Part shown: positions 24,681 through 48,011 of the stretch, piece after piece
Position numbering within the stretch: position 1 is the stretch's first letter
Layout: each line of letters starts with the position of its first letter
Notes under the pieces: generated by a model
Databases searched by the model: none
Told to the model about the DNA's origin: nothing
Seen by the model: the letters and a program-made list of their open reading frames with translations, nothing else
Translations under genes and position numbers: made by a program
Source: Methanosarcina acetivorans C2A
Lineage (GTDB): Archaea; Halobacteriota; Methanosarcinia; Methanosarcinales; Methanosarcinaceae
Length of the DNA: 64,000 nt
Direction of reading: 5' to 3'
NCBI RefSeq assembly: GCF_000007345.1
Contig: NC_003552.1
Span: forward strand, 1,240,001-1,304,000

Positions 24681-27617
24681 TTATTGTACTATTCTCATAT
24701 TCAGTATCGGTCTCTGGCTTTCGATTTCCCAGTCATTGCTGTAGAATGCAATGTAGTTATTGCTTTCAGTTTTTGCTTTGATCAGGAATCCAGTGTTTTC
24801 GTATTCCCCACTTACATATTCTTTAACAAGATCAGTTATATCAAGTTCGTAATACCTGTTGTCTGGAAGTTCTTTTCCTTTTATGGTGAACTTAGCATAT
24901 GGTGTGTTTCCCTGAGAAACACCTTCTTTGTCGTACCAGTCTCCTCCAGCATTCGTCCATTTCACGCCATTATCCCTGTTATTCCAGCTCACATAACTGG
25001 GATTCCAGGAAGCCGGCCTGTAAACTTCAATGACTGTATCTTCAGGCCTTGATTCTTCTGGATAGTACCAGTAAAGAGAGATAATTGCCTTACTGATTTC
25101 CTGGTCTGAATATTCGCTCAGGTTAAACCACATAACGTCTCTGTACCTTCCTACGTCGTCAGTGCCCCCTACATCAATGAAAGGTTTGTCCTGGAAAACC
25201 GTATCCGGGGAAGCTTCCCGCAGGCGGTTATCCTTGGCACCAGTAATTGCTACGTTTACTGGTTCTGCGGGTACTTGCTTTGTTATCTTAAGCTTTGGCT
25301 CCTGACTTTCGTTTCCGCAGTCACTGCTGTAGAATGCAATATAGTTATTGCTTTCACTGCGGGCTTTAATCAGGAATCCAGTGTTTTCGTATTCCCCACT
25401 TACATATTCTTTAACAAGATCAGTTATATCAAGTTCGTAATACCTGTTGTCTGGAAGTTCTTTTCCTTTTATGGTGAACTTAGCATATGGTGTGTTTCCC
25501 TGAGAAACACCTTCTTTGTCGTACCAGTCTCCTCCAGCATTCGTCCATTTCACGCCATTATCCCTGTTATTCCAGCTCACATAACTGGGATTCCAGGAAG
25601 CCGGCCTGTAAACTTCAATGACTGTATCTTCAGGCCTTGATTCTTCTGGATAGTACCAGTAAAGAGAGATAATTGCCTTACTGATTTTCTGGTCTGAATA
25701 TTCGCTCAGGTTAAACCACATAACGTCTCTGTACCTTCCTACGTTGTCAGTGCCCCCTACATCAATGAAAGGTTTGTTCTGGATAACCGTATCTGGGGAA
25801 GCTTCCCGCAGGCGGTTATCATATATTTTTATGTCCTCATCCGGGTTGCTATCATTTTCGACTACTGTTATATTTGCAGTAGTGGAGTCTTTCAATTCTC
25901 CGTCACTCACTTCAAAAATTACTGTGTAGGATCCTTCCTGGCCTGAAATCGGGGTCCAGCTGAATATTCTGGAATTTCCATCAAATGTTGCTTCTTCCGG
26001 AATGTCTAAAACGGAGTATGTAAGGCTGTCTCCGTCTTCATCTGAAGCATTTACTTCAAAATTAAGAGTTTTTCCGATCTCAACTGTAGCAGATGGGATA
26101 GGATCCATTACAGGGGGATGGTTGATGTTTATCGGTGCGTCTCCTGAATTTGAAGCGTATTTTGTGTTCCCGTAAGCTCCTATATTGATCCTGTCTCCGT
26201 TATCTTCAGGTTCGTTTGAATAATCAGACAACGGGTGCCCTGCATCAATACAGGGGGAACTTACGTTATCAGTTGTCCATCCGGCATTACTCCATCTTCC
26301 GGCTTTTGATTTGAGGTGGTAATCACGATTTGAGATGTCGGCGTACAATGGATCAACATTTATGTCTGTAGTCGGGGCGACATTTACGTAATTTCCAGCA
26401 GCGCTATTGTATACACAGTTGTATTCCAGTATAAACGTGTGATTCGAAGGATCACAATCTTTCACTCCCCAGCCTGAACCTACATCTGCGACATTTCGAA
26501 TAGTGTTTGAAATTATATTATTTCTAACAATAGTCACGAATCCATTATCTTTTGGGATTCCGTAGGCTGGATATAGTTCGTATGCAACACCGTACTTTCT
26601 GTTTCCATCTATTACATTATTTTCAATTATGGTGTTATTAAATCCCTGAACTACAATTCCACCTGCTTCATGAAGGGTAGACGATGTTCCTGTGTCATAA
26701 ATTACGTTATGATGAATCCATACTCCCTTAGCTTTGTCTTTATCATATTTGCCGTAGCCTACTAACCAGATTGCCCATGCATGTGTATGATAAATTAAGT
26801 TATTGTAAATTTCTATATCGTCCATTAAACGATCAGTCATTTTTTTATCCAGCTCTATTCCAGCATATCCTTTATAATTTGATGTTATCGTGTTATTGTA
26901 AATCTTGATATGCATCGTTTCTGTTAATCGAATGGCTGCGTCTGCCTTTATAGTGATATTGTTGTTATATATGGACGCGTTTGACGAATGTTTTAACCAT
27001 ACGGCATCATGTCCAATTTCAAATATAGTGTTGTTGTACACATTGATATTTGTCGGAACAGTTTCATATTCTCTTGAATAATCATGGAATACTTTAATTC
27101 CGTCCCCCAGTCCGTCGTGGAGATACATGTCATGGACAGTTACATTATAACTTTTTTTCAGGTTGATCATGTTATAGAAACTGTTTCCAATTTTTTCATA
27201 CTGGTTTTTGCAGTTTCCATCTATCTCAAATCCGCGTATGGTTATATTCTTTTCAAGATCCTGTTTTGCTTCAATAAATCCTTTATATTCTATATTCCAG
27301 TTTGCGTAATCAATCAGTTTTATTACAGCATCTGAATCTCCTTCCAATATTGTGTTGCTTCCAATATATAGCGTATCGTTTATCCAATACGTATTTGAAC
27401 CGTTGAGATGGACGGTTGTAAAATCAGAGTTTTTGTTTACAAATGAAAGTGCTTCATTTATTTCGATATGATCATTTTTTCCATCGCAGTTGTAGTCACC
27501 ACTACCGTCTGTGTCGATGTATACAATTGGCGCTGTAGGCGAAGCGCATAGTACTATTTGAATATTTATTAATAGAGTTAATGCTACTAGAAATAGCATC
27601 AGTAACTTTCTTTCCAT
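24681..27617 (-). CDS. Disaggregatase homologue: beta-helix, Ig-like domain and two disaggregatase repeats
   Basis: Secreted surface protein of 978 aa from ATG 27617, which has AAGGT 10 nt upstream (a GTG at 27626 would add three residues). Layout: signal peptide (RKLLMLFLVALTLLINIQIV), parallel beta-helix (about 30-490, many YNNTI turns), an Ig/cadherin-like domain (about 505-590, ASDEDGDSLTYSV, VSDGELKDS), then two copies of about 196 aa starting DNRLREASPDTV and matching the Pfam disaggregatase-related repeat. In M. mazei, disaggregatase cleaves the methanochondroitin matrix and releases single cells. The exact substrate of this protein is inferred. No sortase motif or C-terminal anchor is visible. 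Confidence 0.85.
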   Translation of the reverse strand: MERKLLMLFLVALTLLINIQIVLCASPTAPIVYIDTDGSGDYNCDGKNDHIEINEALSFVNKNSDFTTVHLNGSNTYWINDTLYIGSNTILEGDSDAVIKLIDYANWNIEYKGFIEAKQDLEKNITIRGFEIDGNCKNQYEKIGNSFYNMINLKKSYNVTVHDMYLHDGLGDGIKVFHDYSREYETVPTNINVYNNTIFEIGHDAVWLKHSSNASIYNNNITIKADAAIRLTETMHIKIYNNTITSNYKGYAGIELDKKMTDRLMDDIEIYNNLIYHTHAWAIWLVGYGKYDKDKAKGVWIHHNVIYDTGTSSTLHEAGGIVVQGFNNTIIENNVIDGNRKYGVAYELYPAYGIPKDNGFVTIVRNNIISNTIRNVADVGSGWGVKDCDPSNHTFILEYNCVYNSAAGNYVNVAPTTDINVDPLYADISNRDYHLKSKAGRWSNAGWTTDNVSSPCIDAGHPLSDYSNEPEDNGDRINIGAYGNTKYASNSGDAPININHPPVMDPIPSATVEIGKTLNFEVNASDEDGDSLTYSVLDIPEEATFDGNSRIFSWTPISGQEGSYTVIFEVSDGELKDSTTANITVVENDSNPDEDIKIYDNRLREASPDTVIQNKPFIDVGGTDNVGRYRDVMWFNLSEYSDQKISKAIISLYWYYPEESRPEDTVIEVYRPASWNPSYVSWNNRDNGVKWTNAGGDWYDKEGVSQGNTPYAKFTIKGKELPDNRYYELDITDLVKEYVSGEYENTGFLIKARSESNNYIAFYSSDCGNESQEPKLKITKQVPAEPVNVAITGAKDNRLREASPDTVFQDKPFIDVGGTDDVGRYRDVMWFNLSEYSDQEISKAIISLYWYYPEESRPEDTVIEVYRPASWNPSYVSWNNRDNGVKWTNAGGDWYDKEGVSQGNTPYAKFTIKGKELPDNRYYELDITDLVKEYVSGEYENTGFLIKAKTESNNYIAFYSNDWEIESQRPILNMRIVQ
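24690..25816 (-). repeat. Tandem duplication, period 588 bp, inside the disaggregatase gene
   Basis: The two C-terminal repeats are almost identical at DNA level; for example 24783 onward and 25371 onward run together for over 300 bp with few changes. The exact in-frame period is 588 bp (196 codons). Differences cluster at the ends of the units. Confidence 0.85.
26180..27530 (-). repeat. Long direct repeat with 1760-3130
   Basis: The beta-helix coding part is nearly identical to that of the truncated gene at 1710-3245. Both are on the minus strand about 24 kb apart. It is a ready substrate for homologous recombination or gene conversion. Confidence 0.8.
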
Positions 27618-27626
27618 AGTGTTCAC

Positions 27627-28345: not shown

Positions 28346-30064
28346 CCTAGATTCGGCAGGTTAACGTAATTAGAGATAGATATTTTCATATTTCTCTCCC
28401 ATTAGACCCAGTATCTTCCAGTGAATCTCCTCCATATTCAATATTTCTGACTTCATTTGTCCTTCGTTCTGATAAATAAGTTCTGTAATTCCCTGAAAAT
28501 TGAAAAATATCCATCTCATTGTAGGTCTTTTTGTTTGTTTCCCTTTTTGATCTGGAATCGTTTCATTTTCTTCTTCTAATTTTGTCCTTAATTTCCATTC
28601 TGCAATTGAATAAATCATCAAGCAGAGAACCATTATCATAGTCAGCGCTTCAATTCTCTTTTTGTTCTTGAGGTAAACCTTCGATATGCTAAAGGTGTTA
28701 CTTTTCAAGAATCTGAATCCTTTTTCCACGTTATCCTGACCTTTGTAATACTTCAGCATATCCTCAGGAGAAAGATTGATATCATTACTTGCAAGAATAA
28801 AAAGTCCCATTTTATCCATTTCATTTAAAACAAAAGCATCATTAACCTTTATGATTCCATTAATCCTGTAATAAGTCTTTAATTGCTCATCTTTTGAAGG
28901 TCTGCCTCTTTTCCCCAACTCACGTTTTTTAATGGATTTCACATCTACTTTTTCAAATGAGACAGAAGGGAAATCTTGAATCCATTTTTCTGCAGCTTTT
29001 AATGCATCCTCTTCGCAAAAAAAGTCCTCTCCTTTCAGTTCTTTAAAAGACTTCTCTGCTTTTTCAACCTCTTTTTCAAGCTTCGTCCTGAGAGTTTGCT
29101 CTTTCTTCTCTTTCATCTTGTGAGAAAGCAGCAAAACCCACTTTTGTTTGATTCCACCATATTCCACAAAGGTTTGATAAAATGAGTATCTTTCGTCGCT
29201 TTTTAGCGTTTTCAGGTTCAGATTTGCAGTTAGCAGTTCCTTTGCCTCGGTAATTGTTGCAGGAACACGACTGATCCAGAATGACTTTCCCATGTTCTTG
29301 ATATTATTGTCTGTGTAAAAGGAACTATCAGCGACGTAGTAAACTTCGCTTTCAGGTCTTAAAACTGATTTGAGAGACTGGATCGCTTCCAGAATTGTGT
29401 TTTTGTCGGAAGAATTTCCTGAATGTGTGTTCATGAAAAGAGGTATCCCATGCTGATTAACAATCAAACTAAGTACAAATTGTTTGAGGTCCCATCTTCC
29501 GTTTTTGGGAATTCCAAAAGTAATGTCAATAGACTCAGTTTCTTCGTCATCATAATCCCCATAAACGCTGACACTTGTAGTGTCAGCGTGTAAACAATGA
29601 ACAGGAATAGGGAGACGAGTCATAATGTGAAGAGCAATTTCCGTAAACAGTTTTGTAGGGCCATATTTTACGATTCTGTCAAGAGTCTCTCCGATAACGT
29701 ATTGATTCAGATCCTCTCTTGTTATACCGTCTCCGAAAAGCCTTTCCGTAGAAATGTTTTTAAAAAAATCAGGAAACAGGTATAGACGTTGCCCTACGAA
29801 ACCAAGACCATTGAGCAACATGGCAAGGATGCAGACTGAGTGAGGGACAGTATGATCCCTTTCTTTGGGAAGTTTTTCATCGATCAGTTTGTCAACCTCA
29901 AGTTCTCGGAAAACTCCAGCCATAAGACCAAGGTGACCTAAGAACCTTGTACGTTTTAGGGAGGATTCAACTCTTCTACTGCTGTTTTTTTCTGCCATGG
30001 GAAGACCAGGAAAGAGATATAAAAGTAATAATATTAAGATATTTGTTTACCTGCCGAATCTAGG
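28346..30064 (-). mobile_element. IS1634-family element, copy 2
   Basis: Element of 1719 bp with the same ends as copy 1 (CCTAGATTCGGCAGG / CCTGCCGAATCTAGG). The target duplication TTTTAT lies at 28340-28345 and 30065-30070. The differing duplications show that the two copies inserted independently. Confidence 0.92.
28370..29998 (-). CDS. IS1634-family transposase (copy 2)
   Basis: 542 aa, intact, with the same motifs as copy 1 (CLHADTTSVSVYGDY, VYYVADSSFYT, GQDNVEKGFRF). Differences from copy 1 are few, for example KKFKELKGE-type and LIYQNEGQM changes. It is presumably active, and may be able to mobilise related MITEs. Confidence 0.9.
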   Translation of the reverse strand: MAEKNSSRRVESSLKRTRFLGHLGLMAGVFRELEVDKLIDEKLPKERDHTVPHSVCILAMLLNGLGFVGQRLYLFPDFFKNISTERLFGDGITREDLNQYVIGETLDRIVKYGPTKLFTEIALHIMTRLPIPVHCLHADTTSVSVYGDYDDEETESIDITFGIPKNGRWDLKQFVLSLIVNQHGIPLFMNTHSGNSSDKNTILEAIQSLKSVLRPESEVYYVADSSFYTDNNIKNMGKSFWISRVPATITEAKELLTANLNLKTLKSDERYSFYQTFVEYGGIKQKWVLLLSHKMKEKKEQTLRTKLEKEVEKAEKSFKELKGEDFFCEEDALKAAEKWIQDFPSVSFEKVDVKSIKKRELGKRGRPSKDEQLKTYYRINGIIKVNDAFVLNEMDKMGLFILASNDINLSPEDMLKYYKGQDNVEKGFRFLKSNTFSISKVYLKNKKRIEALTMIMVLCLMIYSIAEWKLRTKLEEENETIPDQKGKQTKRPTMRWIFFNFQGITELIYQNEGQMKSEILNMEEIHWKILGLMGEKYENIYL

Positions 30065-30406: not shown

Positions 30407-31666
30407 TCAATTAGGTGAAGAATTGTAAGCAATCAATTTTTTATAAACATTTATCTGGGTTTCTGTCAACTTTTTCCAGTCGTATCTGGCTTCAACCAGT
30501 TTTCTTGCATTCATACCGATTCGACTTGAAAGTTCTTCATCTTCCAACAAGGATATAATTAAACTCGCAAATTTGGGCCACTCATCCGCTATTAAAATAT
30601 CTTTGTTGTCGCTAATTTCCAAACCTTCAGCACCAATTGTAGTTGAGACCACAGGTTTACTCATAGCCATATATTCGAGTATCTTCAAACGAGTCCCTGA
30701 ACCGCTCATTAGCGGTGCAATACAAACATCTGAGTTTGAGATGTATGGCCTCACATCCTCTACAAATCCAATAATCTCTACTGAATTATCTGTTTTTGAG
30801 TAGTCATTAAGCCAGTTTGGGCAGTTTTTACCCATAATATAGAGTTTTATACTCTGGAATTTCTTTTTTATTAATGGATGTACATGTTCCAAGTAATTTT
30901 TAATCCCGAATTCGTTTGGAGGATATGTTAAATTCCCCATGAATAATAAATTTGGATGGACTAATTTCATGTCATTTTCAATTATTTCAATTTTATAAAA
31001 ATCACAATTTACTCCATTCGGAACTACATTGATTTTATCTTTTGAAATTCCGTAAGATATATATATATCTCTGTCTACTTCTGAAACTACAAAAATATGG
31101 TCAAATTCGTTAAGAATATTTAACTCATATGCCTTGAATCCAGAAACAACTCGCTTATGTGCAAATCTCATCAATAAGCTTTTTTGATGATTGATTTGTC
31201 TTATAAAATTCAGATGGTCAACGTTATGAAGAGTTATGACCTTAGCTCCTTCAAAGTGGGAATTTGATGCAGCCTGTATTACAGGCGCTGCTTCTATGGT
31301 GTGTTGGGCGTGAATAATATCGAAATTGCTTTTTTTTAGTACAGATTCAATGGTTTTTATATTAATTGGTGAATTGTATCTGTAAAATGGGGGATACATC
31401 CCATCTAAAAGAACGGTTTTTATTTTTTTTAATGCTGATAAATCCGGGATTTCTCTTGTGTATATTTTTCCATTTAACTCTTTTTCAAGTTGAGTTATGT
31501 TATACATCGAATTATCAAATTTATTATCATTATAATAATTGCAAATTATCTGTGACTCGATTTTTTTCTCAGAAAGTTTTTTTATAATATTGTAATCTCT
31601 AACAGGGGCACCACTTATAGTAAAAGGGATATATGGCATTACATGTAGAACTCTCACGGGTTTCAA
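30407..31666 (-). CDS. Glycosyltransferase family 4 (GT-B)
   Basis: Cytosolic glycosyltransferase of 419 aa. The acceptor-side domain starts VLHVMPYIPFTISGAP (HVMPY-type glycine-rich start), with IIHAQHTIEAAP in the middle. The donor domain has INVVPNGVN, LLFMGNLTYPPNEFG and the nucleotide-sugar-binding region IAPLMSGSGTRLKILEYMAM followed by SKPVVSTTIGAEGL. The last of these corresponds to the E-x7-E motif, here less acidic, as in the Glyco_trans_1_4 subgroup. It is the last gene of the polysaccharide operon; its ATG overlaps the previous stop (31663-31666). Sugar specificity is not readable. Confidence 0.88.
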   Translation of the reverse strand: MKPVRVLHVMPYIPFTISGAPVRDYNIIKKLSEKKIESQIICNYYNDNKFDNSMYNITQLEKELNGKIYTREIPDLSALKKIKTVLLDGMYPPFYRYNSPINIKTIESVLKKSNFDIIHAQHTIEAAPVIQAASNSHFEGAKVITLHNVDHLNFIRQINHQKSLLMRFAHKRVVSGFKAYELNILNEFDHIFVVSEVDRDIYISYGISKDKINVVPNGVNCDFYKIEIIENDMKLVHPNLLFMGNLTYPPNEFGIKNYLEHVHPLIKKKFQSIKLYIMGKNCPNWLNDYSKTDNSVEIIGFVEDVRPYISNSDVCIAPLMSGSGTRLKILEYMAMSKPVVSTTIGAEGLEISDNKDILIADEWPKFASLIISLLEDEELSSRIGMNARKLVEARYDWKKLTETQINVYKKLIAYNSSPN

Positions 31667-32832
31667 ACTCCCACTTTTTTATATACCTTCAGAATTTCTC
31701 CAACAACGGTATCCCATTTGAAATTCTTAGCGTATTTTTTTATCTGTTCATTGTCCCATTCTTTATCTAAAGCTACCAGTATTTTTGCTGCTAATTCCTT
31801 TGAGTTCGCTGGTTCAACCAGATAACCATAATTTTCAGAAATCAAAACTTCTTCACTTCCCCCATTGTATGTTGCAACTACAGGTTTACCACAGCTCATT
31901 GCTTCTATCTGAACTATCCCAAAGCTTTCAAGCAGGCTCGGTAAGACAAAAACATCGCAGGCATTCATCCATAATGGAATTTCAGTATGTGGCCTGCTCC
32001 CTACAAGCTTTATGCAATCCTCCAGCCCTGCAGATCTAACCTGCTTTTTTAACTTCTTCTCTAATTTTCCTCCTCCAACTATGAAGCACATTATATCTTT
32101 TCTCTTTGATGTGATTTTGCTCATAGCTTCAATAAGGTACCTGTGTCCTTTTACTTCCCCGTACAGGCTCCCAACATTTAATATTACTTTCTTATCTGGG
32201 GGTAATCCAAGTTTTTTTCGGCAACTTTGTGAATCTAGAGCATGAAAATATTTTTGGCTATAACCATTTGGGACATAATACACTTTATTCAGGGGGACTC
32301 CAACATTCTGGAAAAGTGATATATCACCTTTCCTAACACGAATTATTGCGTCACATAAGTTCCATGCTCGAATAAATTGAGATTCTTTCTTTTCTACGGC
32401 ATGGGTGAATGTCCGAGAAGTATGTTCTGTAATAACTACCGGGACATCATATTTTTCCTTTAATTTTATAGCGACCGTTCCAGCTCTCCATGTAAAATGA
32501 GCATGAATTAAATCAAAGTGCAAATTTTTATCTTCAATTAATTTTTTAATGGTTTTTTCTTCAAAATGTATCCACAGATCTCGCCCGTATTTGAAAAATA
32601 GCGGGCAATTTAAGTATTTTGGAAAATATACGTGAACGTTGTCAAATTCATAATTCTCATGCCGTGTATGTCTTAAAAGTTCCATTCCAAAAGCAACTGG
32701 AGATACTACATATATGTTCTCAAAATGTTCTTTGAGAACCGTAACCTGTTCTTTTACGAAGATTTCTCTCACATACTTATTATCAGCATTTGGAAAATCA
32801 TTGGATATTATGAGTAAATTTTTTGATGTCAT
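31663..32832 (-). CDS. Glycosyltransferase family 4 (GT-B)
   Basis: 389 aa, classical GT4. The N-terminal half has NLLIISNDFPNADNKYVREI and LIHAHFTWRAG. The donor half has YYVPNGYSQKYF, VILNVGSLYGEVKGHRYLIE, SRPHTEIPLWMNACDVFVLP and ESFGIVQIEAMSCGKPVVAT (the E-x7-E motif), typical of retaining hexosyltransferases that use UDP- or GDP-sugars. Translationally coupled to the next gene by a 4-bp overlap and separated by 2 bp from the CapK-like gene upstream. Confidence 0.9.
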   Translation of the reverse strand: MTSKNLLIISNDFPNADNKYVREIFVKEQVTVLKEHFENIYVVSPVAFGMELLRHTRHENYEFDNVHVYFPKYLNCPLFFKYGRDLWIHFEEKTIKKLIEDKNLHFDLIHAHFTWRAGTVAIKLKEKYDVPVVITEHTSRTFTHAVEKKESQFIRAWNLCDAIIRVRKGDISLFQNVGVPLNKVYYVPNGYSQKYFHALDSQSCRKKLGLPPDKKVILNVGSLYGEVKGHRYLIEAMSKITSKRKDIMCFIVGGGKLEKKLKKQVRSAGLEDCIKLVGSRPHTEIPLWMNACDVFVLPSLLESFGIVQIEAMSCGKPVVATYNGGSEEVLISENYGYLVEPANSKELAAKILVALDKEWDNEQIKKYAKNFKWDTVVGEILKVYKKVGV

Positions 32833-32834
32833 AT

Positions 32835-34172
32835 TTATAACTCACTCAATATAAATTTGTATTTTCCAGCTTTGGTCCTTTCGATTTCGTCTACATAGAG
32901 GAATTCTATTTCCCATTGCTCAGATTTACTTTTAATTATCTTTCTAATAATATCCAGTTGATTCTCATCAAAATTCTCTTCTAAAACCATTTTTATGGTT
33001 ATTAAATTCAACTTTTTTTGTATTATCTGGAATTCTTTGACTCCATCAATTTCCCAGAAAATGCGTGAAAATAAACCCCCGTAAATAAATTTTCCTTCCG
33101 GGGTTTGCAAAATTTCCTGTTGTCTTCCCATGACTTCCTTTAATAATCTGGAACCACGGCCGCATCCACAATCATCACTTACAATATGCCCCATATCGCC
33201 GGTATCATATCTGATAAAGGGCATTGCATAGTTATGAAGACTTGTTGCAATTATTCTTCCAGATCCGTTTTCTAATTGAAAACCCTCATCATCCACAATT
33301 TCCAGGATGCTCCGCTCAGTGTCAATGTGAAGGCCATTATGCTCTTGGCACTCATAAGCCCCCAAACCGCCATCATTCAATCCATATCCATCAAATACAT
33401 CACATCTGAATACGTTTTCAATGTTTTTCCGCATATGGGGAATTAATTTTTCTGCAGCGGTGAAAACTGCCTGAGGAGTAATAATATCAATTTCATTATT
33501 ATCAAGATATTTTGAGAAAAAATTTAACGAAGAAGCATAGCCTCTTATGAATTGGGGTTTGAAGGAGTTAATTGTTTTTATATATTGCTGCATATCTTCA
33601 TTACTCATGTCATAAGAAGACAGTTTCCGAAGATTTCTTGTGATTCCATGAGCTTTCTGGACAATAAAGGAGCTGGAGCCAACGTCCAGGGAGGAACCTG
33701 CCAAAAATACCATCTTATCTCCTAATTCATATCCCGCATATCCCCACCCGCGATAGAGAGAGGCACCATTGAAAAATCTATCATATTTTAAAAGTCTGAA
33801 ATGAAGGGGGTTGCCCGTTGACCCTCCTGTTGAATTTATGTAGTATTTCATCGAGTTCAGGTTAAGTGGTTTGAAATCTTCAAAGTTCTCTTTGATTATT
33901 GCTTTATTCAGGATGGGAAGCTTTTCAAGATCTTCGAGTGTCCTGATCTCGCCGGGATCCAGCTTGAGTTTATTAAATAATTTATGGTAGTAGGGCACAT
34001 TTTTATAAGAAAAGTTGAGCAGATGCTTCAGTTGTTTTTCCTGAGCTTTTTTCTGTTCAGAGTAAGGTTTCCACTGAGTGGCTACTAAATTTTTATATGT
34101 TGGATAAAATCCCCGCTCTCCTAATTGATGGGCGAATATGAATAAAGATTTATGAAACATGTTTTCTTCCAT
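32835..34172 (-). CDS. CapK/PaaK-like adenylate-forming enzyme
   Basis: 445 aa of the phenylacetate-CoA ligase/CapK family. The ATP-binding loop NSTGGSTGNPLHFR lies near residue 112; the later adenylation motifs include FDGYGLNDGG and FIRYDTGDMG. The N-terminal region (WKPYSEQKKAQEKQLKHLL, SYKNVPYYHKLF) is typical of CapK proteins found in capsule and exopolysaccharide clusters, where they may activate an acyl or amino group for polymer modification. Substrate unknown. It lies inside the minus-strand operon. Confidence 0.82.
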   Translation of the reverse strand: MEENMFHKSLFIFAHQLGERGFYPTYKNLVATQWKPYSEQKKAQEKQLKHLLNFSYKNVPYYHKLFNKLKLDPGEIRTLEDLEKLPILNKAIIKENFEDFKPLNLNSMKYYINSTGGSTGNPLHFRLLKYDRFFNGASLYRGWGYAGYELGDKMVFLAGSSLDVGSSSFIVQKAHGITRNLRKLSSYDMSNEDMQQYIKTINSFKPQFIRGYASSLNFFSKYLDNNEIDIITPQAVFTAAEKLIPHMRKNIENVFRCDVFDGYGLNDGGLGAYECQEHNGLHIDTERSILEIVDDEGFQLENGSGRIIATSLHNYAMPFIRYDTGDMGHIVSDDCGCGRGSRLLKEVMGRQQEILQTPEGKFIYGGLFSRIFWEIDGVKEFQIIQKKLNLITIKMVLEENFDENQLDIIRKIIKSKSEQWEIEFLYVDEIERTKAGKYKFILSEL

Positions 34173-34199
34173 AAGCAGTTAGCTTGATGAATCAATTAT

Positions 34200-35240
34200 C
34201 TATTTTCCGTATTTTTCTACAGTCTCCGTCATAAATTTCGTCACGTCTATTTTTTCTACGAGTAATTTTTCTCTTTTTTGTCTACCTTCTTTTTTTAGAA
34301 GCGGATTATTCAATAGTTGCAGTGCCGTTGCTAAAGAGTCTTTGCCCATCGAGCCTTCATTATAAAAGTTGTATACTAATCCATATCTCTTTTCTTCTTC
34401 GTCTGTATATCCTCTACCTGCATAATCACAGAATATTGCATGTGTGCCCAGAACTGCACATTCTGAAGCCATTGTTGCACTGTCTCCGTACAGTAATGTT
34501 GCATAATATAACAGATCGTGCATCTTTTCCGGTGAAACATTTATCCGATATTTCTCAAACTCTTTCTGAAGAGGTTTTTCTGAACTTATAAGGACACGTC
34601 CATATTTTTCAAATTCTCTTACGGCATTTCTTTTATCCTCTAAAGTTAAACCGGCATGTCCAACATCGTGAATTGCGCCCCAGGAGACAAATCGCAAAAT
34701 AATAAAAGTATCGTTTTCTTTGATCCCAAGTTCTTTTATAACTTCTGGATTGGGTGTGAAATAATCAGGATGGAGATAGGCAAGTTCATGATTTCCACTA
34801 TACCGTATTTGCTTCTCACCCAGATCAGTCCTGTAACTTGATGGCGTACAGATAACAGTTGCAAAAGGATCCATCAAAAAATGTTCAACTTTTGAATGTT
34901 CGGTGTCATCAAATATAATAGAAGTTTTTCCAATCAATTTCCCAAGATGTGAAAGATATACATTCCCAACGCCGCCAACCAGGATATCGGGTTTAAATGA
35001 TTTAGCAATCCTGTACAATATATATTCTATTTTTATCATTTCAGTTGCTTTAGTAAAGGATGTGAATTTTGCATTCCCTACTACATCGTATTCAAATCCA
35101 TAAGCATCCAGCAAATTCAATGAAACTTCCTTATCAACAGCTGTAATTTTACAAATATGCCCTTTTTCTTTCAGATTCCAGAGTAAATTCTTAAACAAAT
35201 GGACCTGAGCAGGATGACCTATATTGAAGAGTATTCTCAT
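34200..35240 (-). CDS. DUF354 protein, GT-B / UDP-GlcNAc 2-epimerase-like fold
   Basis: 346 aa. The start MRILFNIGHPAQVHLFKNLL is characteristic of DUF354 proteins (GHPAxVHxFK). Further conserved segments are KPDILVGGVGNVYLSHLGKL, SIIFDDTEHS, ILRFVSWGAIHDVG and LYGDSATMASECAVLGT. The family is found in archaeal and bacterial surface-sugar clusters and shares the fold of UDP-GlcNAc 2-epimerases and GT-B transferases; the reaction is not established. Operon context supports a role in making or transferring an aminosugar. Confidence 0.82.
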   Translation of the reverse strand: MRILFNIGHPAQVHLFKNLLWNLKEKGHICKITAVDKEVSLNLLDAYGFEYDVVGNAKFTSFTKATEMIKIEYILYRIAKSFKPDILVGGVGNVYLSHLGKLIGKTSIIFDDTEHSKVEHFLMDPFATVICTPSSYRTDLGEKQIRYSGNHELAYLHPDYFTPNPEVIKELGIKENDTFIILRFVSWGAIHDVGHAGLTLEDKRNAVREFEKYGRVLISSEKPLQKEFEKYRINVSPEKMHDLLYYATLLYGDSATMASECAVLGTHAIFCDYAGRGYTDEEEKRYGLVYNFYNEGSMGKDSLATALQLLNNPLLKKEGRQKREKLLVEKIDVTKFMTETVEKYGK

Positions 35241-35296
35241 TTCCTCACCACTACGATTTTTTTCTCTAATTTAAATGCCTGGTTTGAATGCCTGGT

Positions 35297-35986
35297 TTAA
35301 ATGCATGACTCCGCATTTTGACCATGTTTCTTTACAATGAAGACTAAAGAGCAGGGCAGTTTTGTTAATTTTGATATCAAAATGTGTATTTTTGTTGAAA
35401 ATTTGTTAAATACCAAAGAATGAAACATTTTTATAATAAACTGCCTGTCATAAAAATACACCTCTTCAACTATACAGTCAAGATCTTCAAAAAATAGCTT
35501 TAACTCTTCTATCTTATGATTTCTCCAGCGCGTTTTTCTGATATCTCCTGTCAGGTTGGAGCTGTGCACAAAAACCAGTTTACCTCCGTTGTCAAGTAGC
35601 AGTAGGTATTTTTCCATCAGTTCGCTGTCTTGTTTAATGCCAAATAGTGCAAATCCGGAAAGAAATATAATCCCGAATTTATCAGTAAAATATTTTTCAG
35701 GATACCTGCCGTCAGCAACCAGAAACTCGACTTTTGAGTTCAATTCTTTTTTTCTCTCATTTGCTTTTTTAATCAGGGCTTTATCATAATCAAAAGCAGT
35801 TACTTCTGCTCCACAAGCTTCAAACAAAAAAGAGTAATGTCCGTTTCCACACCCAACGTCAAGAACCTTAGTATTTTTATTTTCAGAAAATTTCAAAATC
35901 TGCTTTATGAAGTATCTGTCTTCCGGATAGTATCTGAATCCCCTGCTTAAGACCAGTTTGTGAATAATTCCGTCAATGAATTTCAC
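35297..35986 (-). CDS. Class I SAM-dependent methyltransferase
   Basis: 229 aa with the Rossmann-type motif I VLDVGCGNGHYSFLFEACGA near residue 40, the acidic ribose-binding end of beta 2 (VTAFDYD) and KVEFLVADGRYPE. Such enzymes in polysaccharide clusters often O-methylate sugars, but no substrate-determining feature is visible. The start overlaps the end of the upstream deacetylase-like gene (ATGA at 35983-35986), so translation is coupled. Confidence 0.82.
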   Translation of the reverse strand: MKFIDGIIHKLVLSRGFRYYPEDRYFIKQILKFSENKNTKVLDVGCGNGHYSFLFEACGAEVTAFDYDKALIKKANERKKELNSKVEFLVADGRYPEKYFTDKFGIIFLSGFALFGIKQDSELMEKYLLLLDNGGKLVFVHSSNLTGDIRKTRWRNHKIEELKLFFEDLDCIVEEVYFYDRQFIIKMFHSLVFNKFSTKIHILISKLTKLPCSLVFIVKKHGQNAESCI

Positions 35987-36759
35987 GGTCTCACAGCCAT
36001 CAAAATCTTTTTTCCCGAATTAAGTATAAAATCATATATCCAGAACAAACTCCAATTGACTATATTTGACTTCCAGCGGTCCGGATGTGCGGAGATATAG
36101 AAATTGCTGATCTCACATTTCTCGATTAATTCGATAAGGTCATCCGTTTTTTCGGCAAAAATCCGTTCCTTTTTACCTGGAATGAAGTCTCTGAGATTAT
36201 TTTTTGAATTCCAGCTCCTCCCAGTATCTGTAAAATAGTTGAGGTCCTCTCCTGTAGATAAATAAGCTTCTCCAAGAATCCCGAAATCTTCTAAATTGTA
36301 GAATTTCCATAGTTCCCGGTTGTCATACTTTGACAGTACCGCTCCGTGCATACAGATAGTTTTGAGGTTGCAAATTTTTCGGAACTTCTGCACATCGCTT
36401 TCAAATAATTTTATGGCTTTTTCATGGTCTCCTTTTGCAGTGCTCAGTACCTCATAGTGATATCCTACCTCATGTCCCATTTTCTCAATTTTCTGTATGA
36501 TTTCGGGAACAAATGCTTTCTTATGGGTTCTGAAATAGTAAGTAGCCTTTATGCCGTACTCTTTTTCTATATTTGCTGTTTCGAGCGCATTCCTTGCCAG
36601 TTTATCAACATCGTGACGAATTAATACAAATTTCTCAGGAAGATTGTCGCCTGCTATCACGTATTCGTGCATGGTGAGGAATGTGTACCTATCAGATATG
36701 GCAGAACAAAGCTGACGATATTTATCATGTGTAAAATCCAGATTATGAAAGTTTAGCAT
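35983..36759 (-). CDS. Polysaccharide-deacetylase-like protein
   Basis: 258 aa. The NodB-like metal motif is FVLIRHDVDKLARNALETAN (Asp-Val-Asp, near residue 48), followed by KATYYFRTHKKAF and MGHEVGYHYEVLS. The histidine pair is not in the standard H-x3-H spacing, so it is a distant member. ICMHGAVLSKYDNRELW may provide a further metal ligand. It is strongly similar along its whole length to the N-terminal half of the next gene (36872-38596), indicating tandem duplication. Likely acts on N-acetylated sugars or a related group; not proven. Confidence 0.7.
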   Translation of the reverse strand: MLNFHNLDFTHDKYRQLCSAISDRYTFLTMHEYVIAGDNLPEKFVLIRHDVDKLARNALETANIEKEYGIKATYYFRTHKKAFVPEIIQKIEKMGHEVGYHYEVLSTAKGDHEKAIKLFESDVQKFRKICNLKTICMHGAVLSKYDNRELWKFYNLEDFGILGEAYLSTGEDLNYFTDTGRSWNSKNNLRDFIPGKKERIFAEKTDDLIELIEKCEISNFYISAHPDRWKSNIVNWSLFWIYDFILNSGKKILMAVRP

Positions 36760-36871
36760 TCAAATTCACCATTCCCAATTATCTGGCTCTCCGATCCAAT
36801 TGTCCTATCGATAAGCAGCGGGCGCAATTTTTATTTGACATTATAATTTTATTTAACATTCTAATTTTTAT
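36760..36871. other. Gap between the two deacetylase-like genes
   Basis: 112 bp, AT-rich. No gene seen; it may hold the promoter for the distal part of the operon. Confidence 0.3.
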
Positions 36872-38596
36872 TCAAATTTCAAAATAACTTCTTGCTTGAT
36901 TTTTTAACGGAACTTTATTGATATTTTCAATCTCTTTAAACACGTAACGAAGCCTCTCTTCAACGATCTTTCCTTTTATAGTCCAGTAGAAAGGCCTCCT
37001 GTTTCCGATAGATGGAAATTTTTCCCGGGAAATGTCAATAGGGTGAAAATAAAAGATTGTATCGCCTCTGTTCAAACTTTGCTTCAGTCCTCTGAATTTC
37101 AAATGAGAACCTAAAAACCTCAGAGTAGGCCCGCCATATGTAGGAATCTTAATACCTATATCATAGTAAGCCCAGGGAAATTCAACAAAATTTCTCTTTT
37201 CGGAGGAAGGTTCGAGGCTTCCCGGGGCCGGATAATAGGGAAAGGAAGAAACATGTCTTAAAGAAGAATCCGATTTATTATACAGTGAATTCACCGATAC
37301 CGATGAATCGTACTTAAAACCGATTTTTTCTAGAGAGTCAAGCATCCATCCTGTAACTGCTCCGTTTGGTGCTCTATATCCGATAACTTCCTGACCGGAT
37401 GTCCTTTCAAGTAATTTTTTTGCATTCAGGGTCGTTACTTCAAATTCTTCAACATCGATAAGAGGCTCTTTTGTTTTCGTATCGACCACACATCTATGAT
37501 CCGCTCCGTGACATGCAATCTCATGCCCTTTCTCAGAAATGGATTCGATAAGTCCAGGATAACGTTTTACAACATCTGCAACAATAAAGAATGTCGCAGT
37601 GATATTGAACTCATCAAGAAGGTCCAGTGTTTTTCTTGTCGGTTCACTCAGGTAATCATACCTGTCATTCCATTTTTTAAAAAATTCGTTCACATCTTTA
37701 TATACGGAAAAACTGGACCCGCAGACCGATGGAATATGATACCAGTCTTCAACGTCAACCGTAATTGACATCTTGTTTTTACTTAACATCTTGTTTTTAC
37801 TTATAACCCGGAAATTTCTGTTTTTTTCACGCCATTTTATCAAGATTTTCTTCCCAAGATTAACTGACGTATCTGTAGAGTAATATAAACCCCATCCGAG
37901 TAAACTTGAAGGCCATCTTTCAGGATGCACTAAAATATAAAAATTATTTAATTCTCTTTTCTCTATGAGCTCAATAAGTTCATCAGTTGTTTCGGCAAAA
38001 ACCCGTTCGGTTTTTCCGGGAATACAGTCTCTTATACTATTTCTATGACCCCATGTTCTTCCGGTATCTGAGAAATAGTTGAGGTCGTCTTTTACGGATA
38101 GGTAGGCTTCGCCGGTTACACCGAAATCCCTGAAATCATAATTTTTCCAGAGCTCGCGATTGTCATGTTTTGAGAGAGGTTTTCCATGCATGCAGATCGT
38201 TTTTATCTCACACATTTCTCTCAACTTTTCCAGATTTGATTGAAAGAGGGCAAGTGCTTTTTTGTGATCTCCCTTTGCCTCACTTAAGGTTTCGTAATGA
38301 TAACCGATCTCATGACCCATACTTTTTATCTGCTTTATGATTTCAGGTTTGAATACATTTTTTACAGTCCTGAAATAATATGTTGACTTTATTCCAAGTT
38401 CATGTTCTATTCGGGCAGTAACCAGGGCACGTTCCGGCATCCTGTCAATATCGTGGCGCATCAATACAAAACATTCTGGATGCTCTTTCTCCATATATTC
38501 GGCCATCGTTATTGTGGGGTAATTACTCGATATTGCTTCACAGAGCCTAAGGAATTTATGGCTGGTAAAATCACGAGTCTCACTACTAATAAACAT
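36872..38596 (-). CDS. Fusion of two polysaccharide deacetylase-type domains
   Basis: 574 aa. Residues 1-265 repeat the distant deacetylase-like domain of the neighbour (FVLMRHDIDRMPERALVTAR, MGHEIGYHYETLSEAKGDHK). Residues about 270-574 are a standard NodB deacetylase: MSITVDVEDWYHIP (catalytic Asp-Glu-Asp), ATFFIVADVVKRYPGLIE, GHEIACHGADH (H-x3-H), VIGYRAPNGAVTGWML and FYFHPIDI. This C-terminal layout matches the deacetylases of XrtA/exosortase exopolysaccharide clusters. The join includes a short repeat (SKNKMLSKNKM). The fusion is unusual; both halves retain metal motifs. No signal peptide, so it is probably cytoplasmic. Confidence 0.82.
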   Translation of the reverse strand: MFISSETRDFTSHKFLRLCEAISSNYPTITMAEYMEKEHPECFVLMRHDIDRMPERALVTARIEHELGIKSTYYFRTVKNVFKPEIIKQIKSMGHEIGYHYETLSEAKGDHKKALALFQSNLEKLREMCEIKTICMHGKPLSKHDNRELWKNYDFRDFGVTGEAYLSVKDDLNYFSDTGRTWGHRNSIRDCIPGKTERVFAETTDELIELIEKRELNNFYILVHPERWPSSLLGWGLYYSTDTSVNLGKKILIKWREKNRNFRVISKNKMLSKNKMSITVDVEDWYHIPSVCGSSFSVYKDVNEFFKKWNDRYDYLSEPTRKTLDLLDEFNITATFFIVADVVKRYPGLIESISEKGHEIACHGADHRCVVDTKTKEPLIDVEEFEVTTLNAKKLLERTSGQEVIGYRAPNGAVTGWMLDSLEKIGFKYDSSVSVNSLYNKSDSSLRHVSSFPYYPAPGSLEPSSEKRNFVEFPWAYYDIGIKIPTYGGPTLRFLGSHLKFRGLKQSLNRGDTIFYFHPIDISREKFPSIGNRRPFYWTIKGKIVEERLRYVFKEIENINKVPLKNQARSYFEI

Positions 38597-38699
38597 CAGG
38601 GATCACCGTAAATTTTAGGGGAATGTATGCGAGACATTAAGCCTCTACTTTTCTATGAAAATTTTTATTCCCGGTTGAAGGCATACTTCACCCAATTAA

Positions 38700-40238
38700 T
38701 CAGTTTGGTTTTGCATAATTCAGCGATGTCGTCTTATTAACTTGCATGTCAAAGAACATGGCAAAAAGAAGTAATTGCATACCCATGAGCGAAATAAACA
38801 CATCCAAAAGTGGGTAATTTGCCGAAACAGATCCATGTAAAACTATTTTTTGTAAAAAAATCCATAGCCCAAACAAAAATCCTACTGGCACAAGCACCAT
38901 GCTGAGAATATAAAATAGTACAAGGGGATGGAAATCGAGAATCATGTACTTCATCTTCAATCTCCACAAAAAACCTCTAAAAATCATGGGGGCAACTTTT
39001 ATTATGTAGGCACTATATTTGATGGTTGACTTTTCTCTTCCATAACGTGCAGGCATGGCTACATCTATTGTTTGCAGTCCAAGGGCGTTGAGTTTTATAA
39101 GAAGATCGTTGCAGTAACCATAGTAAGTATAAACTGAATCCAGATCAATATCTTCAAGTGCTTCTCTGGATATTACTGTATAACCGTTTTGAGGGTCGGT
39201 AATATGCCAATATCCGCTTCCTACTTTTGTGATTAGAGTTAGGAGCCCGTTTCCGAAGGCTCGCCAGGTGCTCATTCCTTTCCTCATTTCTTTTGAAAGA
39301 AGGCGGTTGCCTTTAGTATAATCGGCTTTTCCCTCAATAATAGGAAAGAGTAACCGGGGTAGTTGAGAGGGGTCCATCTGGTTGTCTCCCGCCATAACCG
39401 CAACCATATCCATTTCATCAGCCAGAGCATACTTATACCCATTTATTATGGCTGCTCCGACACCTTTGTTGACTTTGTGGTGTATTGGCACTAGTCTTGG
39501 ATCGGTCATTCTGTCAATGATCTCTCCTGTTCGGTCGGAACTACTATCGTTTATGACATAGATCTTATCTATGTAATCCGGGATTCCTTCAATTGTTTCC
39601 TGGATCAAAAGTTCTTCGTTATAAGCCGGAACCACAACTCCGATCTTGTAGGCTTTAAAGAGATTTTTTTCGTGCTCTTCCTGCAGGTCTATGTGATAGG
39701 CATTTATTTTTTTTCTTTCACATATGGACATAATAGAACGAATTGAGTTAAGATATACATCAGAAAGATCAAGTTCCTCGAGGCAGGCTTTTGAGATTGC
39801 CAGAAACCCAACTGGTCTTTCTTCGGTCTTTTTATTTTTTATCAAATGAACGCTCTCGTGATTCCTTTTATGCCTGCCAATACACGTTCCTACCGTAAGG
39901 TCAAAGTTTCCTTCTCTAATAGGCTTAATCATTTCCGGGATTAATCTTGGATCTCTACAAACATCCATATCCATTGTGACCAGAATATCGGCACCTTTTG
40001 CAGCTTCAACACCTTTTCTCAGTGATAAATTTTTGTTTGTGCCTGAAAAACCCTGAATTACTTCAGCTCCTGCAGCTTCGGCCACTTCTGAACATTGATC
40101 TGAACTGCAGTTATTTACAACGATTATCCGTTCTGCATAACGCTTAGCGATAAGCACGACTGTCCCTATTTCCAATTCTTGGTTAAAAGCAGGAAGAATA
40201 ACTGTAATCTCCGATAAACCCTCCTTATACATATTCAT
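38700..40238 (-). CDS. Two-domain family 2 glycosyltransferase with C-terminal membrane helices
   Basis: 512 aa. Domain 1 (about 8-200): TVILPAFNQELEIGTVV, IIVVNNCSSDQCSEV, LVTMDMDVCRDP (D-x-D). Domain 2 (about 205-430): VVVPAYNEELLIQETIEGIP, IYVINDSSSDRTGEI and VAVMAGDNQMDP, as in dolichyl-phosphate hexose synthases. Two hydrophobic helices follow (VLFYILSMVLVPVGFLFGLW and FISLMGMQLLLFAMFF). This suggests that a lipid-linked sugar is made at the membrane. It is the first gene of the minus-strand operon, with a long AT-rich upstream region. Having two GT2 domains in one chain is uncommon. Confidence 0.85.
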   Translation of the reverse strand: MNMYKEGLSEITVILPAFNQELEIGTVVLIAKRYAERIIVVNNCSSDQCSEVAEAAGAEVIQGFSGTNKNLSLRKGVEAAKGADILVTMDMDVCRDPRLIPEMIKPIREGNFDLTVGTCIGRHKRNHESVHLIKNKKTEERPVGFLAISKACLEELDLSDVYLNSIRSIMSICERKKINAYHIDLQEEHEKNLFKAYKIGVVVPAYNEELLIQETIEGIPDYIDKIYVINDSSSDRTGEIIDRMTDPRLVPIHHKVNKGVGAAIINGYKYALADEMDMVAVMAGDNQMDPSQLPRLLFPIIEGKADYTKGNRLLSKEMRKGMSTWRAFGNGLLTLITKVGSGYWHITDPQNGYTVISREALEDIDLDSVYTYYGYCNDLLIKLNALGLQTIDVAMPARYGREKSTIKYSAYIIKVAPMIFRGFLWRLKMKYMILDFHPLVLFYILSMVLVPVGFLFGLWIFLQKIVLHGSVSANYPLLDVFISLMGMQLLLFAMFFDMQVNKTTSLNYAKPN

Positions 40239-41364: not shown

Positions 41365-42216
41365 ATGACATATTTCGACAAACAAACAAGAATTTTCTGG
41401 AAATTAGCAGGAAATCCAGAAGTACGACAGAAAAACTCAAAGCATCAGGGTAAGGAAACCCTTGCATATTTTCTCCTTCTTCTTATCGCTCTACCCGAAT
41501 CTTTAATCTATTCTGAACATACTCAAACTGCTCTCTTGCTGTATGCAGTTCTACTGGTAGCTCTATCTTCAATCTCAATATTTGTGAAAGAGCAGGAAAT
41601 CCGCAACATCTGCCAGGTTTTACTGTTATTTCCTATTCTCCGCCTTACGAATTTTTCAGTGCCGTTCTTCCCGGAAAGCCCTCTTCTCTTCTTTGTGTTC
41701 GTTTACAGTCCTATACTAATTCCTTTAACCATTGTTGTGATTCGTCAACAGTTTACATATGAACAACTAGGACTCAATTTCAAAAATGTAGGCTATTATC
41801 TCCCAATCTCTATTCTTATCGGTTTCGTCCTCGGGTACGGTGAATCTCTTCTCATCCAGACAACCTCACTTATTCCTGATCTTTCTTTTATAAATATCTT
41901 AAAACTTATAGTTGTAATGGTTTTATTTGTCGGAATTATTGAAGAATTAATATTCAGATCAATCCTCCAGACAAGACTTGAGGAAATATTTGGGACACGA
42001 AGTGGTCTGGTTCTTTCAAGCCTGGTTTTTGGATTCATGAACTCCGGTTATGGGACTTCATATGAGATCTTATACGCTTCCTTTGCAGGATTTATAATTG
42101 GATATTTGTTTTATAAGACAAGAAGCCTTCCTTTCATTGCACTGACACACGGCTTTATAAACGTATTTTCGTTTGGAATTCTACCTCTTATGGGTTATGG
42201 GTTTGGCTTTTTCTGA
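41365..42216 (+). CDS. CPBP-family intramembrane metalloprotease
   Basis: 283 aa with about eight hydrophobic helices. It has the CPBP (CAAX protease/bacteriocin-processing) motifs: IIEELIFRSILQTRLEEIFG (the EE-x3-R glutamates), the F-x3-N/H position in FGFMNSGYGTS, and LTHGFINVFSFG (catalytic His). Members of this family cleave prenylated or other membrane-embedded peptides; the archaeal targets are not known. Start at the ATG following GGAGAAATAAGT. Neighbours give no clear partner. Confidence 0.85.
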   Translation: MTYFDKQTRIFWKLAGNPEVRQKNSKHQGKETLAYFLLLLIALPESLIYSEHTQTALLLYAVLLVALSSISIFVKEQEIRNICQVLLLFPILRLTNFSVPFFPESPLLFFVFVYSPILIPLTIVVIRQQFTYEQLGLNFKNVGYYLPISILIGFVLGYGESLLIQTTSLIPDLSFINILKLIVVMVLFVGIIEELIFRSILQTRLEEIFGTRSGLVLSSLVFGFMNSGYGTSYEILYASFAGFIIGYLFYKTRSLPFIALTHGFINVFSFGILPLMGYGFGFF

Positions 42217-42342: not shown

Positions 42343-42585
42343 ATGTTTACAAGCATAATCAATACTACACTATCAAGTACAGTTTTTACGAATATGGTGT
42401 GCAGTCTCCCAGATTACTGTATTTTCTCTATGGTCGGATTGAGTTTACTTCTTAGTATCAAGTATGTCCTTTCAGGATCAAGTTTCTGGGAAGAGTTTAC
42501 AGAAAGTTCTTTCAATATGGGGATTTTTCCATTGTTATTGTTATTTATCTGGATAATCATTTATCGTGTTTTTAATGCTTTGTAA
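42343..42585 (+). CDS. Small membrane protein
   Basis: 80 aa with two hydrophobic segments (CIFSMVGLSLLLSIKYVL and GIFPLLLLFIWIIIYRVF) separated by an acidic loop. I do not recognise the family. It is in the same direction as the CPBP gene after a 126-bp gap, so cotranscription is possible but not shown. Confidence 0.5.
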   Translation: MFTSIINTTLSSTVFTNMVCSLPDYCIFSMVGLSLLLSIKYVLSGSSFWEEFTESSFNMGIFPLLLLFIWIIIYRVFNAL

Positions 42586-42588
42586 TTC

Positions 42589-42776
42589 AGCAAGTGGCTT
42601 ATGAAGCCGGGAGCAGGCTTGCAATAAACGTGGCAATGGTCGGGGTAGTTTCGGGGTTACCTGCCCATCCCGAAAAAGGCTCTGCTTGAGAGTGTGAAGG
42701 CTCTTGTGCCGCAGAAGACAATTGAGATTAATGTCAGGGCTTTTGAGATGGGAAGGCAGAAGGTAGAGGAAAGCTA
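42589..42776 (+). pseudogene. iorB: iorB remnant (indolepyruvate oxidoreductase beta subunit, C-terminal)
   Basis: The sequence reads VAYEAGSRLAINVAMVGVVSG and then, after one extra T (about 42657), YLPIPKKALLESVKALVPQ and IEINVRAFEMGRQKVEES plus stop. This matches the C-terminus of IorB, whose family ends with PVKKEAL...NLKAFELG-type sequence. Only about 60 codons survive and one is frameshifted. Codons are GC-rich, unlike the local background, so it is a relic of a native gene lost from this position. Confidence 0.7.
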
Positions 42777-43295
42777 AATCTTTCCTTTTTTTTGAATCAG
42801 GAAGGTTTCAGCCTTTCCTTTTTTCTCAATTTTTTTAGTCCGCCGATCCTTCAGTTCTTTTTTCTTATCTATAATTGCTCTCAGAGTAAGTACAAAAAAG
42901 ATAACACAGATATGTGCAAGTACGAGCCTGATGAGGTTTGAGATCGCATCTGCTACACTCGGATCACGGTACGGCAGAAAAGTCTGGAATATTTCGTTCA
43001 ATATGCCGTAAGCAGTCCCAATGAATACTGCACCAATTGCCGAATATTTTACAAGTGCCGAGTTTTTTGAGCTTAAAAAACGAAGTATAGTAAAACTCCG
43101 AGTCCGAAGTATATCTCCACATGCCCAAGGTCTATGGATGCGTTCTGAACTGTATGAAGCGAGGCAAGTAAAAAAGTCTACTACAGAAGACAGATCATTC
43201 GCAAGGAGAGCATTTCTGATCGGATATCCCATGTCCATTTTCAGGAGATTTTTGAGGTACCCTATTCCGGCGCTGACTGAGAGGTAAAAAACCAT
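42774..43295 (-). pseudogene. VanZ-like membrane protein, frameshifted
   Basis: The C-terminal part (from about 43075 down) is VanZ-like: AVFIGTAYGILNEIFQTFLP, YRDPSVADAISNLI (the conserved E..Q..P.R..S..D...N), then a basic tail. Upstream, the reading that fits the family (LHTVQNASIDLGHVEIYFG, LGVLLYFVF) is in another frame, ending at a T-run near 43080. The annotated frame there is not family-like. Two indels, or decay, have therefore hit the first half. A full-frame product of 173 aa would be possible but chimeric. Confidence 0.6.
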
Positions 43296-43323
43296 AATTG
43301 AATATAATGTGGTAATTATAACC

Positions 43324-43440: not shown

Positions 43441-43494
43441 TTATAACCTTAGTTCTGCATTTTTAAGCGCATGGACGTCGTCTGATGCTGACTT

Positions 43495-45307: not shown

Positions 45308-48011
<2,704 letters not shown>

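Follow-up and report, generated by a model that had tools for sequence, protein, structure and literature searches.

We propose that eight genes within a 64,000-nt stretch of Methanosarcina acetivorans C2A DNA (the window; positions 1,240,001-1,304,000 of a single-contig genome of 5,751,492 bp) probably represent one allele of a surface-glycan island that is variable, lies beside the Methanosarcina ribosomal-protein operon and has had a neighbouring archaeosortase locus deleted from it. The open reading frame list places all eight on the minus strand, running from 40238 to 30407 with intergenic gaps of -4 to 112 bp, and Pfam and NCBIfam profile searches of the window's reading frames assign them as follows:

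38700-40238, minus strand: a single protein with two GT2 domains (GT2+GT2) and C-terminal transmembrane helices (Pfam/NCBIfam).
36872-38596, minus strand: the fused deacetylase, a 574-amino-acid deacN + deacC protein whose C-terminal half is a TIGR03006-like CE4 domain with DUF3473.
35983-36759, minus strand: stand-alone deacN, 258 amino acids, with a predicted CE4/NodB fold, just under the Polysacc_deac_1 cut-off.
35297-35986, minus strand: class-I S-adenosylmethionine methyltransferase (Pfam), in a slot that holds a FemAB-like gene in other cassettes.
34200-35240, minus strand: DUF354 protein (Pfam), with a predicted GT-B fold like that of UDP-N-acetylglucosamine (UDP-GlcNAc) and UDP-2,3-diacetamido-2,3-dideoxy-glucuronate (UDP-diNAc-GlcA) 2-epimerases and GT-B transferases.
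32835-34172, minus strand: CapK/PaaK-like adenylate-forming enzyme (ligase), from NCBIfam and relatives in the PDB.
31663-32832, minus strand: glycosyltransferase GT4b (Pfam/NCBIfam).
30407-31666, minus strand: glycosyltransferase GT4a, TIGR03087-like (174.1 bits, cut-off 316.65), with a TTG start in the reading frame call.

The gene list and coordinates thus agree with an earlier sequence-only reading of this DNA, which had described one operon with two GT4s, a CapK-like gene, DUF354, a methyltransferase, deacetylases and a double GT2. The double GT2 is present as one gene rather than two, and of the two deacetylase-like genes the first carries two CE4-type domains. The N-terminal half of this 574-amino-acid protein is ~58% identical to the 258-amino-acid protein, so the deacN domain occurs twice. 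By inspection the fusion keeps the CE4 motifs TVDVEDW, HGADH, RAP and FHP, and it has CE4 relatives in the PDB; RHDxD, GYHYE, HG and HPxxW are conserved in the stand-alone copy. An AlphaFold model of deacN built on 19 homologues (pLDDT 85.6) gave a Foldseek match that is weak by itself (best E 1.3e-3), and a second structural comparison backs a CE4 deacetylase fold (PplD 6dq3, Z 12.1, root-mean-square deviation 3.8, 179 residues aligned). The DUF354 model (pLDDT 92.1) has the GT-B fold of the non-hydrolysing UDP-GlcNAc 2-epimerases; its top matches, tied within Z 1, include a UDP-diNAc-GlcA 2-epimerase (8sxy, Z 28.6, root-mean-square deviation 3.1, 320 aligned). The C-terminal half of the GT2+GT2 protein resembles polyprenyl- and dolichyl-phosphate sugar synthases (AglJ, PpgS and DPM synthase). 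The CapK/PaaK-like protein was without a match in the Pfam search, and its best solved relative is the phenylacetate-CoA ligase 4r1l (E 1e-23).

The cassette is a patchy and exchangeable element of the genus. Among 31 Methanosarcina genomes, M. acetivorans included and relatives carrying G-labels, the fused deacetylase is present in 4, and CapK of the operon's type (at least 58% identity) in 8, once in pieces. Gene order is shared with G023, G009 and G006, in which the GT2+GT2, deacN + deacC and deacN genes are 72-86% identical (81-86% for GT2+GT2) and DUF354 is 45-90% identical, with the middle of the cassette swapped. As this order is kept in relatives at 72-90% identity, the operon arrangement is not due to chance. 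G023 holds the same cassette up to its contig end; in G006 a FemAB-DUF354-GT4-SDR-DegT-flippase series replaces the stretch from methyltransferase to GT4a; and in G009 this cassette and an alternative one stand in tandem with a disaggregatase between them, followed by DUF2206 and a flippase. The slot beside deacN holds a methyltransferase in seven cassettes (the window's counted) and a FemAB in six, and no cassette has both. A 206-amino-acid island gene of G006 found no match in the M. acetivorans genome or in one relative, and a plasmid search with the operon as query also gave none.

The archaeosortase locus is missing at a precise site between the operon and the ribosomal operon, where the following features were found:

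43322-43542, no strand: the scar left where the archaeosortase C locus has collapsed, 221 bp in place of 29.8 kb in G009 and 37.4 kb in G008.
43495-43626, plus strand: PEF-CTERM relic, 43 amino acids, ending NVPEFPTIAASMAGILGLLFIIGRKKEGL (16.7 bits, cut-off 23).
42774-43295, minus strand: VanZ-like gene, 53-57% identical to its counterparts in relatives, where it forms the far flank of the ArtC locus.
45985-46998, plus strand: ribosomal protein L3, with which the conserved ribosomal operon, the anchor of the island, begins (domain search and synteny).

In G008, G009 and G022 a locus of ArtC, PEF-CTERM, deacetylase and FemAB genes lies directly beyond the same ribosomal operon that flanks the operon in the window. 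In G009 this ArtC locus is followed by the window's operon, the full order being ribosomal operon, PEF-CTERM genes, ArtC, a deacN2-FemAB-DUF354b cluster and a disaggregatase, then VanZ-like, CAAX, the GT2+GT2, deacN + deacC and deacN genes with the cassettes, DUF2206 and flippase; M. acetivorans has the same order minus the ArtC block. Window positions 42893-43321 match G009 896264-895836 (75% identity) and 43543-44212 match G009 866036-865343 (76% identity), the DNA on both flanks of this syntenic site being collinear with G008 and G009. The relic scores below its profile cut-off, yet both its position and its DNA identify it as a homologue of the 3′ end of the PEF-CTERM genes at the edge of the relatives' ArtC locus, whose intact members end ...IPEFPTVAAPVAAILGLFLIFGRKKEGL, so the PEF-CTERM remnant reported by the sequence-only reading is borne out. 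Judged by its position and flanking DNA, this remnant is the scar of the true archaeosortase C locus of G008, G009 and G022. The ArtC of G008 scores 464 bits against TIGR03762 (cut-off 100), and the FemAB adjoining it is TIGR03019-like (216 bits, cut-off 260). No match to ArtC (TIGR03762) was found in the M. acetivorans genome, and a genome search for an intact PEF-CTERM substrate, evaluated at a laxer threshold, gave nothing above the cut-off. The archaeosortase C/PEF-CTERM system of Methanosarcina occupies the same chromosomal island, and in the relatives a sister cluster of deacN2, FemAB, DegT and DUF354b lies directly next to ArtC in divergent orientation, whereas in M. acetivorans ArtC and the intact PEF-CTERM genes are gone and the scar alone remains.

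As the relic represents the truncated end of a gene whose 3′ DNA still matches, the simplest reading is that the ArtC locus was deleted in M. acetivorans rather than gained in the relatives. G006 likewise has a PEF-CTERM relic and no ArtC, and truncated PEF-CTERM C-termini with a matching 3′ flank are not expected of an empty ancestral site; an insertion in G008, G009 and G022 therefore appears quite unlikely, even with an ArtC-type second archaeosortase in only 8 of the 31 genomes. Each second archaeosortase lies ~0.9-1.5 kb from a deacN homologue. We located these loci at L080:6423-12481 and at the matching places in G009, G010, G011, G018, G022, G023 and G024; in G008, G009, G022 and G023 the deacN homologue beside the second archaeosortase is followed by FemAB and DUF354. 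The gene content of this deacN-FemAB-DUF354 cluster suggests that it may make a sugar moiety linked to PEF-CTERM sorting. Near the scar, positions 42565-42774 hold a second decayed gene, a C-terminal fragment (57% identity) of a 200-amino-acid gene whose intact form lies at 3227619 in G008. A short zinc-ribbon-like reading frame (CPICG...YCTLECL) occurs in two similar copies, at ~43980-44150 and 44550-44706, between the relic and the ribosomal operon.

The remaining neighbours extend the locus on its other side, where the sequence-only reading had noted a flippase and disaggregatases, both of which are present in the island:

15168-16727, plus strand: Wzx-type flippase (PF01943, 100 bits).
16865-19009, plus strand: DUF2206 multi-pass membrane protein, candidate polymerase or transferase of the locus (domain search).
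24681-27626, minus strand: disaggregatase-family protein with PF08480 and two PF06848 repeats.
41365-42216, plus strand: CAAX-protease-like (Rce1-like) gene, which borders the cassette in G006, G009 and G023.

In G009 DUF2206 and the end of the cassette converge directly, and the flippase is contiguous with the cassette; as both directly follow the last GT4 (GT4a) in that genome, they belong to the operon's locus, and in the window IS1634, IS21 and the disaggregatase have come between. A Wzx/Wzy-type system would thus have its flippase in the locus, with the multi-pass DUF2206 as the sole candidate polymerase seen. The IS1634-type transposases at 19356-20984 and 28370-29998 are of equal length and domain layout and bracket the IS21 element and the disaggregatase, possibly as a composite arrangement. 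A homologue of this disaggregatase (66%) sits between the two cassettes of G009. The window has three PF08480 disaggregatase-type genes (1710-3245, 4822-6078 and 24681-27626) and the genome eight family matches; a sequence search of solved structures gave no relative for the disaggregatases.

We propose a model, drawn from families, folds and neighbourhood, in which the cassette would make an amino-sugar glycan that is deacetylated and decorated. The GT2+GT2 protein would charge polyprenyl phosphate with a first sugar, and DUF354, with its 2-epimerase/GT-B fold, would lengthen the oligosaccharide together with the two GT4s. The CE4-fold deacetylases may take N-acetyl groups off amino sugars, and the slot gene, a methyltransferase here and a FemAB elsewhere, and the CapK-like adenylating enzyme would decorate the glycan, plausibly at the freed amines. 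Finally, the Wzx flippase would export the glycan and DUF2206 may polymerise it or pass it to the S-layer or envelope.

The wider distribution of the deacetylase core fits such a logic. A genome contig scan found the core in Methanococcoides- and Methanomethylovorans-named genomes, Methanoculleus, Methanogenium and Methanoregula, and also in haloarchaea, ANME-1, Asgard archaea and several bacteria. Of 73 loci, 41 have a GT2 at most two genes upstream of the deacetylase (deacC) core and 27 have DUF354 downstream. Where haloarchaeal, ANME-1 and Chloroflexota loci were checked, UDP-GlcNAc 3-dehydrogenase-like and nucleoside-diphosphate (NDP)-sugar dehydrogenase genes lie just upstream, joined by an aminotransferase in the haloarchaeal and ANME-1 loci, where it was checked; these neighbours point to diamino-uronic sugars. 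By analogy, the core's neighbourhood points to a deacetylate-then-acylate logic as in VimE/VimA of Porphyromonas gingivalis, whose Wbp/Vim linking-sugar pathway has a CE4 deacetylase (VimE) followed by a TIGR03019-like acyl or aminoacyl transferase (VimA) on a diamino-uronate (PMC7468200); the authors of that work tied VimA to the exosortase-associated FemAB family (PMC7468200). Further likenesses are the Wbp-like genes that adjoin the core in haloarchaea, ANME-1 and Chloroflexota, and the DUF354 model, closest to UDP-diNAc-GlcA 2-epimerase in a tie with other 2-epimerases. However, the window cassette has a methyltransferase and CapK where FemAB/VimA would be and holds no FemAB/VimA, and the M. 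acetivorans genome is without a WbpA-type (second NDP-sugar) dehydrogenase; the window cassette is not a member of the Wbp/Vim pathway. In the deacC tree the genus-conserved copies stand apart from the fused-family copies with support 1.0, the fused clade itself having support of only 0.40.

The hallmarks of XrtA clusters that the sequence-only reading saw are upheld for the CapK-like gene, which from its place is probably MA1063; Haft et al. (2006) counted among the relatives of the CapK of exosortase clusters the gene MA1063 from M. acetivorans, which they scored PEP-CTERM-negative (PMC1569441). As in XrtA/PEP-CTERM exopolysaccharide clusters (PMC1569441), a CE4 deacetylase, GT4s and a CapK-like gene are grouped, and FemAB is shared, but in the sister cassettes and not in the window cassette. 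The window operon differs in that it lacks an exosortase, and neither a priming PF02397 transferase nor a chain-length protein is among the window genes scanned; an archaeal AglJ-like GT2 and DUF354 are present instead. No PF09721 (exosortase) match was found in the M. acetivorans genome, and its single TIGR04178 archaeosortase-family gene, of a genus-wide type, lies at 139,986, 1.1 Mb away, so the operon has no associated archaeosortase in this genome. The exosortase link therefore holds through the island of G008, G009 and G022, but not in M. acetivorans. Taken together, a surface-glycan operon of exosortase-cluster flavour is supported.

Several observations weigh against our proposal of a working glycan allele of this flavour. 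Every XrtA-type score is under its equivalog cut-off: the fused deacetylase reaches 132.5 bits against TIGR03006 (cut-off 276.2), and the operon's GT4s fall below TIGR03087, TIGR03088 and TIGR04063 (best 174.1 against 316.65). The UDP-diNAc-GlcA gene set is incomplete in M. acetivorans, with one NDP-sugar dehydrogenase, which makes any assignment of the sugar tentative, and DUF2206 is a candidate polymerase only. Finally, as two IS1634 copies and one IS21, with the disaggregatase, separate the operon from the flippase and DUF2206, the locus may be partly non-functional. Carried further, the three insertion-sequence copies, the PEF-CTERM relic and the gene fragment at 42565-42774 could describe a decaying island in which ArtC loss left a non-functional relic; with all eight operon reading frames intact and full length compared with G009 and G023, and the CE4 motifs kept, we regard this as unlikely. 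A sub-variant of the proposed model, in which the product is an N-glycan or lipid-linked oligosaccharide for S-layer proteins and not a secreted polymer, is a serious contender at somewhat less than even chances: AglJ-type enzymes are the nearest relatives of the GT2 C-terminal domain, the S-layer on which M. acetivorans relies is glycosylated (PMC12369344), and no chain-length regulator or ABC exporter is among the window genes scanned, while the multi-pass DUF2206 and the disaggregatase neighbours suggest a polymer.

Multicellular clumps of Methanosarcina are held together by methanochondroitin, and the sequence-only reading suggested that the locus may make, modify and cleave a methanochondroitin-like matrix. 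The disaggregatases and flippase do share the island, and the number of glycosyltransferases fits a short repeat. However, M. acetivorans forms no methanochondroitin capsule in freshwater or marine medium according to a 2025 review (PMC12369344), the cassette, by its CapK and fused deacetylase counts, is not genus-wide, and its core is also carried by haloarchaea, Methanomicrobiales and further lineages that are not known to produce the polymer. The operon is also without UDP-glucuronic acid (UDP-GlcA) or N-acetylgalactosamine (GalNAc) supply genes, those for UDP-GlcA sitting in another, genus-wide locus, and genome comparison already indicates producers naturally lacking the operon, pending strain phenotypes. 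The cassette is not specifically a methanochondroitin locus, and we consider it very improbable that the operon makes this polymer.

A better candidate exists elsewhere in the genome. The biosynthesis genes of methanochondroitin were still unidentified in 2025 (PMC12369344), and GalNAc and GlcA supply had been linked to ugd/galU/galE-type genes (PMC9723798, PMC11362671). The sole NDP-sugar dehydrogenase of M. acetivorans lies at 5,506,259, adjoining GalU (377.8 bits on the G029 orthologue, cut-off 326.8) and a GalE-like epimerase, within a superlocus of ~60 kb of which 5,474,001-5,512,000 is the M. acetivorans part. As it holds these UDP-GlcA supply genes, the superlocus is a better candidate than the window operon. 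Its order in G029, G004, G008 and partly G005, G006 and G007 is flippases, DUF354, VimE-like proteins, GT2, GT4, an AglJ-like GT2+GT2 protein (T32), two to five or more disaggregatases, deacC (T37) and DUF6541. T32 and T37 are paralogues of the operon's genes, T37 in a clade of its own (support 1.0), with orthologues at 70% identity or more in 24 of the 31 genomes. Nearly all of the Methanosarcina superloci examined have disaggregatase genes directly beside deacC, among them that of M. acetivorans, which has no reported matrix.

M. acetivorans keeps T19-T47 of the superlocus and is without T04-T18, a block of a second sugar-nucleotide dehydrogenase, an aminotransferase, four glycosyltransferases, a membrane protein and a disaggregatase. 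The second-class dehydrogenase T06 is present in the other 30 genomes and missing from M. acetivorans alone, and the only genomes without T15 are M. acetivorans, KYL-1 and one that is 60% complete. That the superlocus is the missing methanochondroitin locus, M. acetivorans being capsule-less through loss of T04-T18 with the ArtC locus lost independently, is a tentative and on balance doubtful extension. T06-T09 resemble a diNAc-GlcA route rather than a GlcA one, and M. acetivorans keeps its GlcA supply, so the link between T04-T18 and the capsule is correlational and comes from one phenotyped strain. We dropped T04-T18 as necessarily the chondroitin block: with a dehydrogenase, a UDP-GlcNAc 3-dehydrogenase, an aminotransferase and an acetyltransferase it resembles a diNAc-GlcA pathway, at odds with the published polymer, whose chemistry is GlcA-GalNAc-GalNAc.

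This analysis removes one candidate for methanochondroitin synthesis and directs attention to a specific, genus-wide alternative, for which a natural gene-loss strain offers a comparison. It also documents, at base-pair scale, the loss of an archaeosortase locus next to a glycan cassette that has related gene content and was retained. For exosortases, it has been proposed that sorted proteins become attached to a sugar made by the associated clusters (PMC7468200), and the loss of the ArtC locus beside a retained cassette bears on that proposal.

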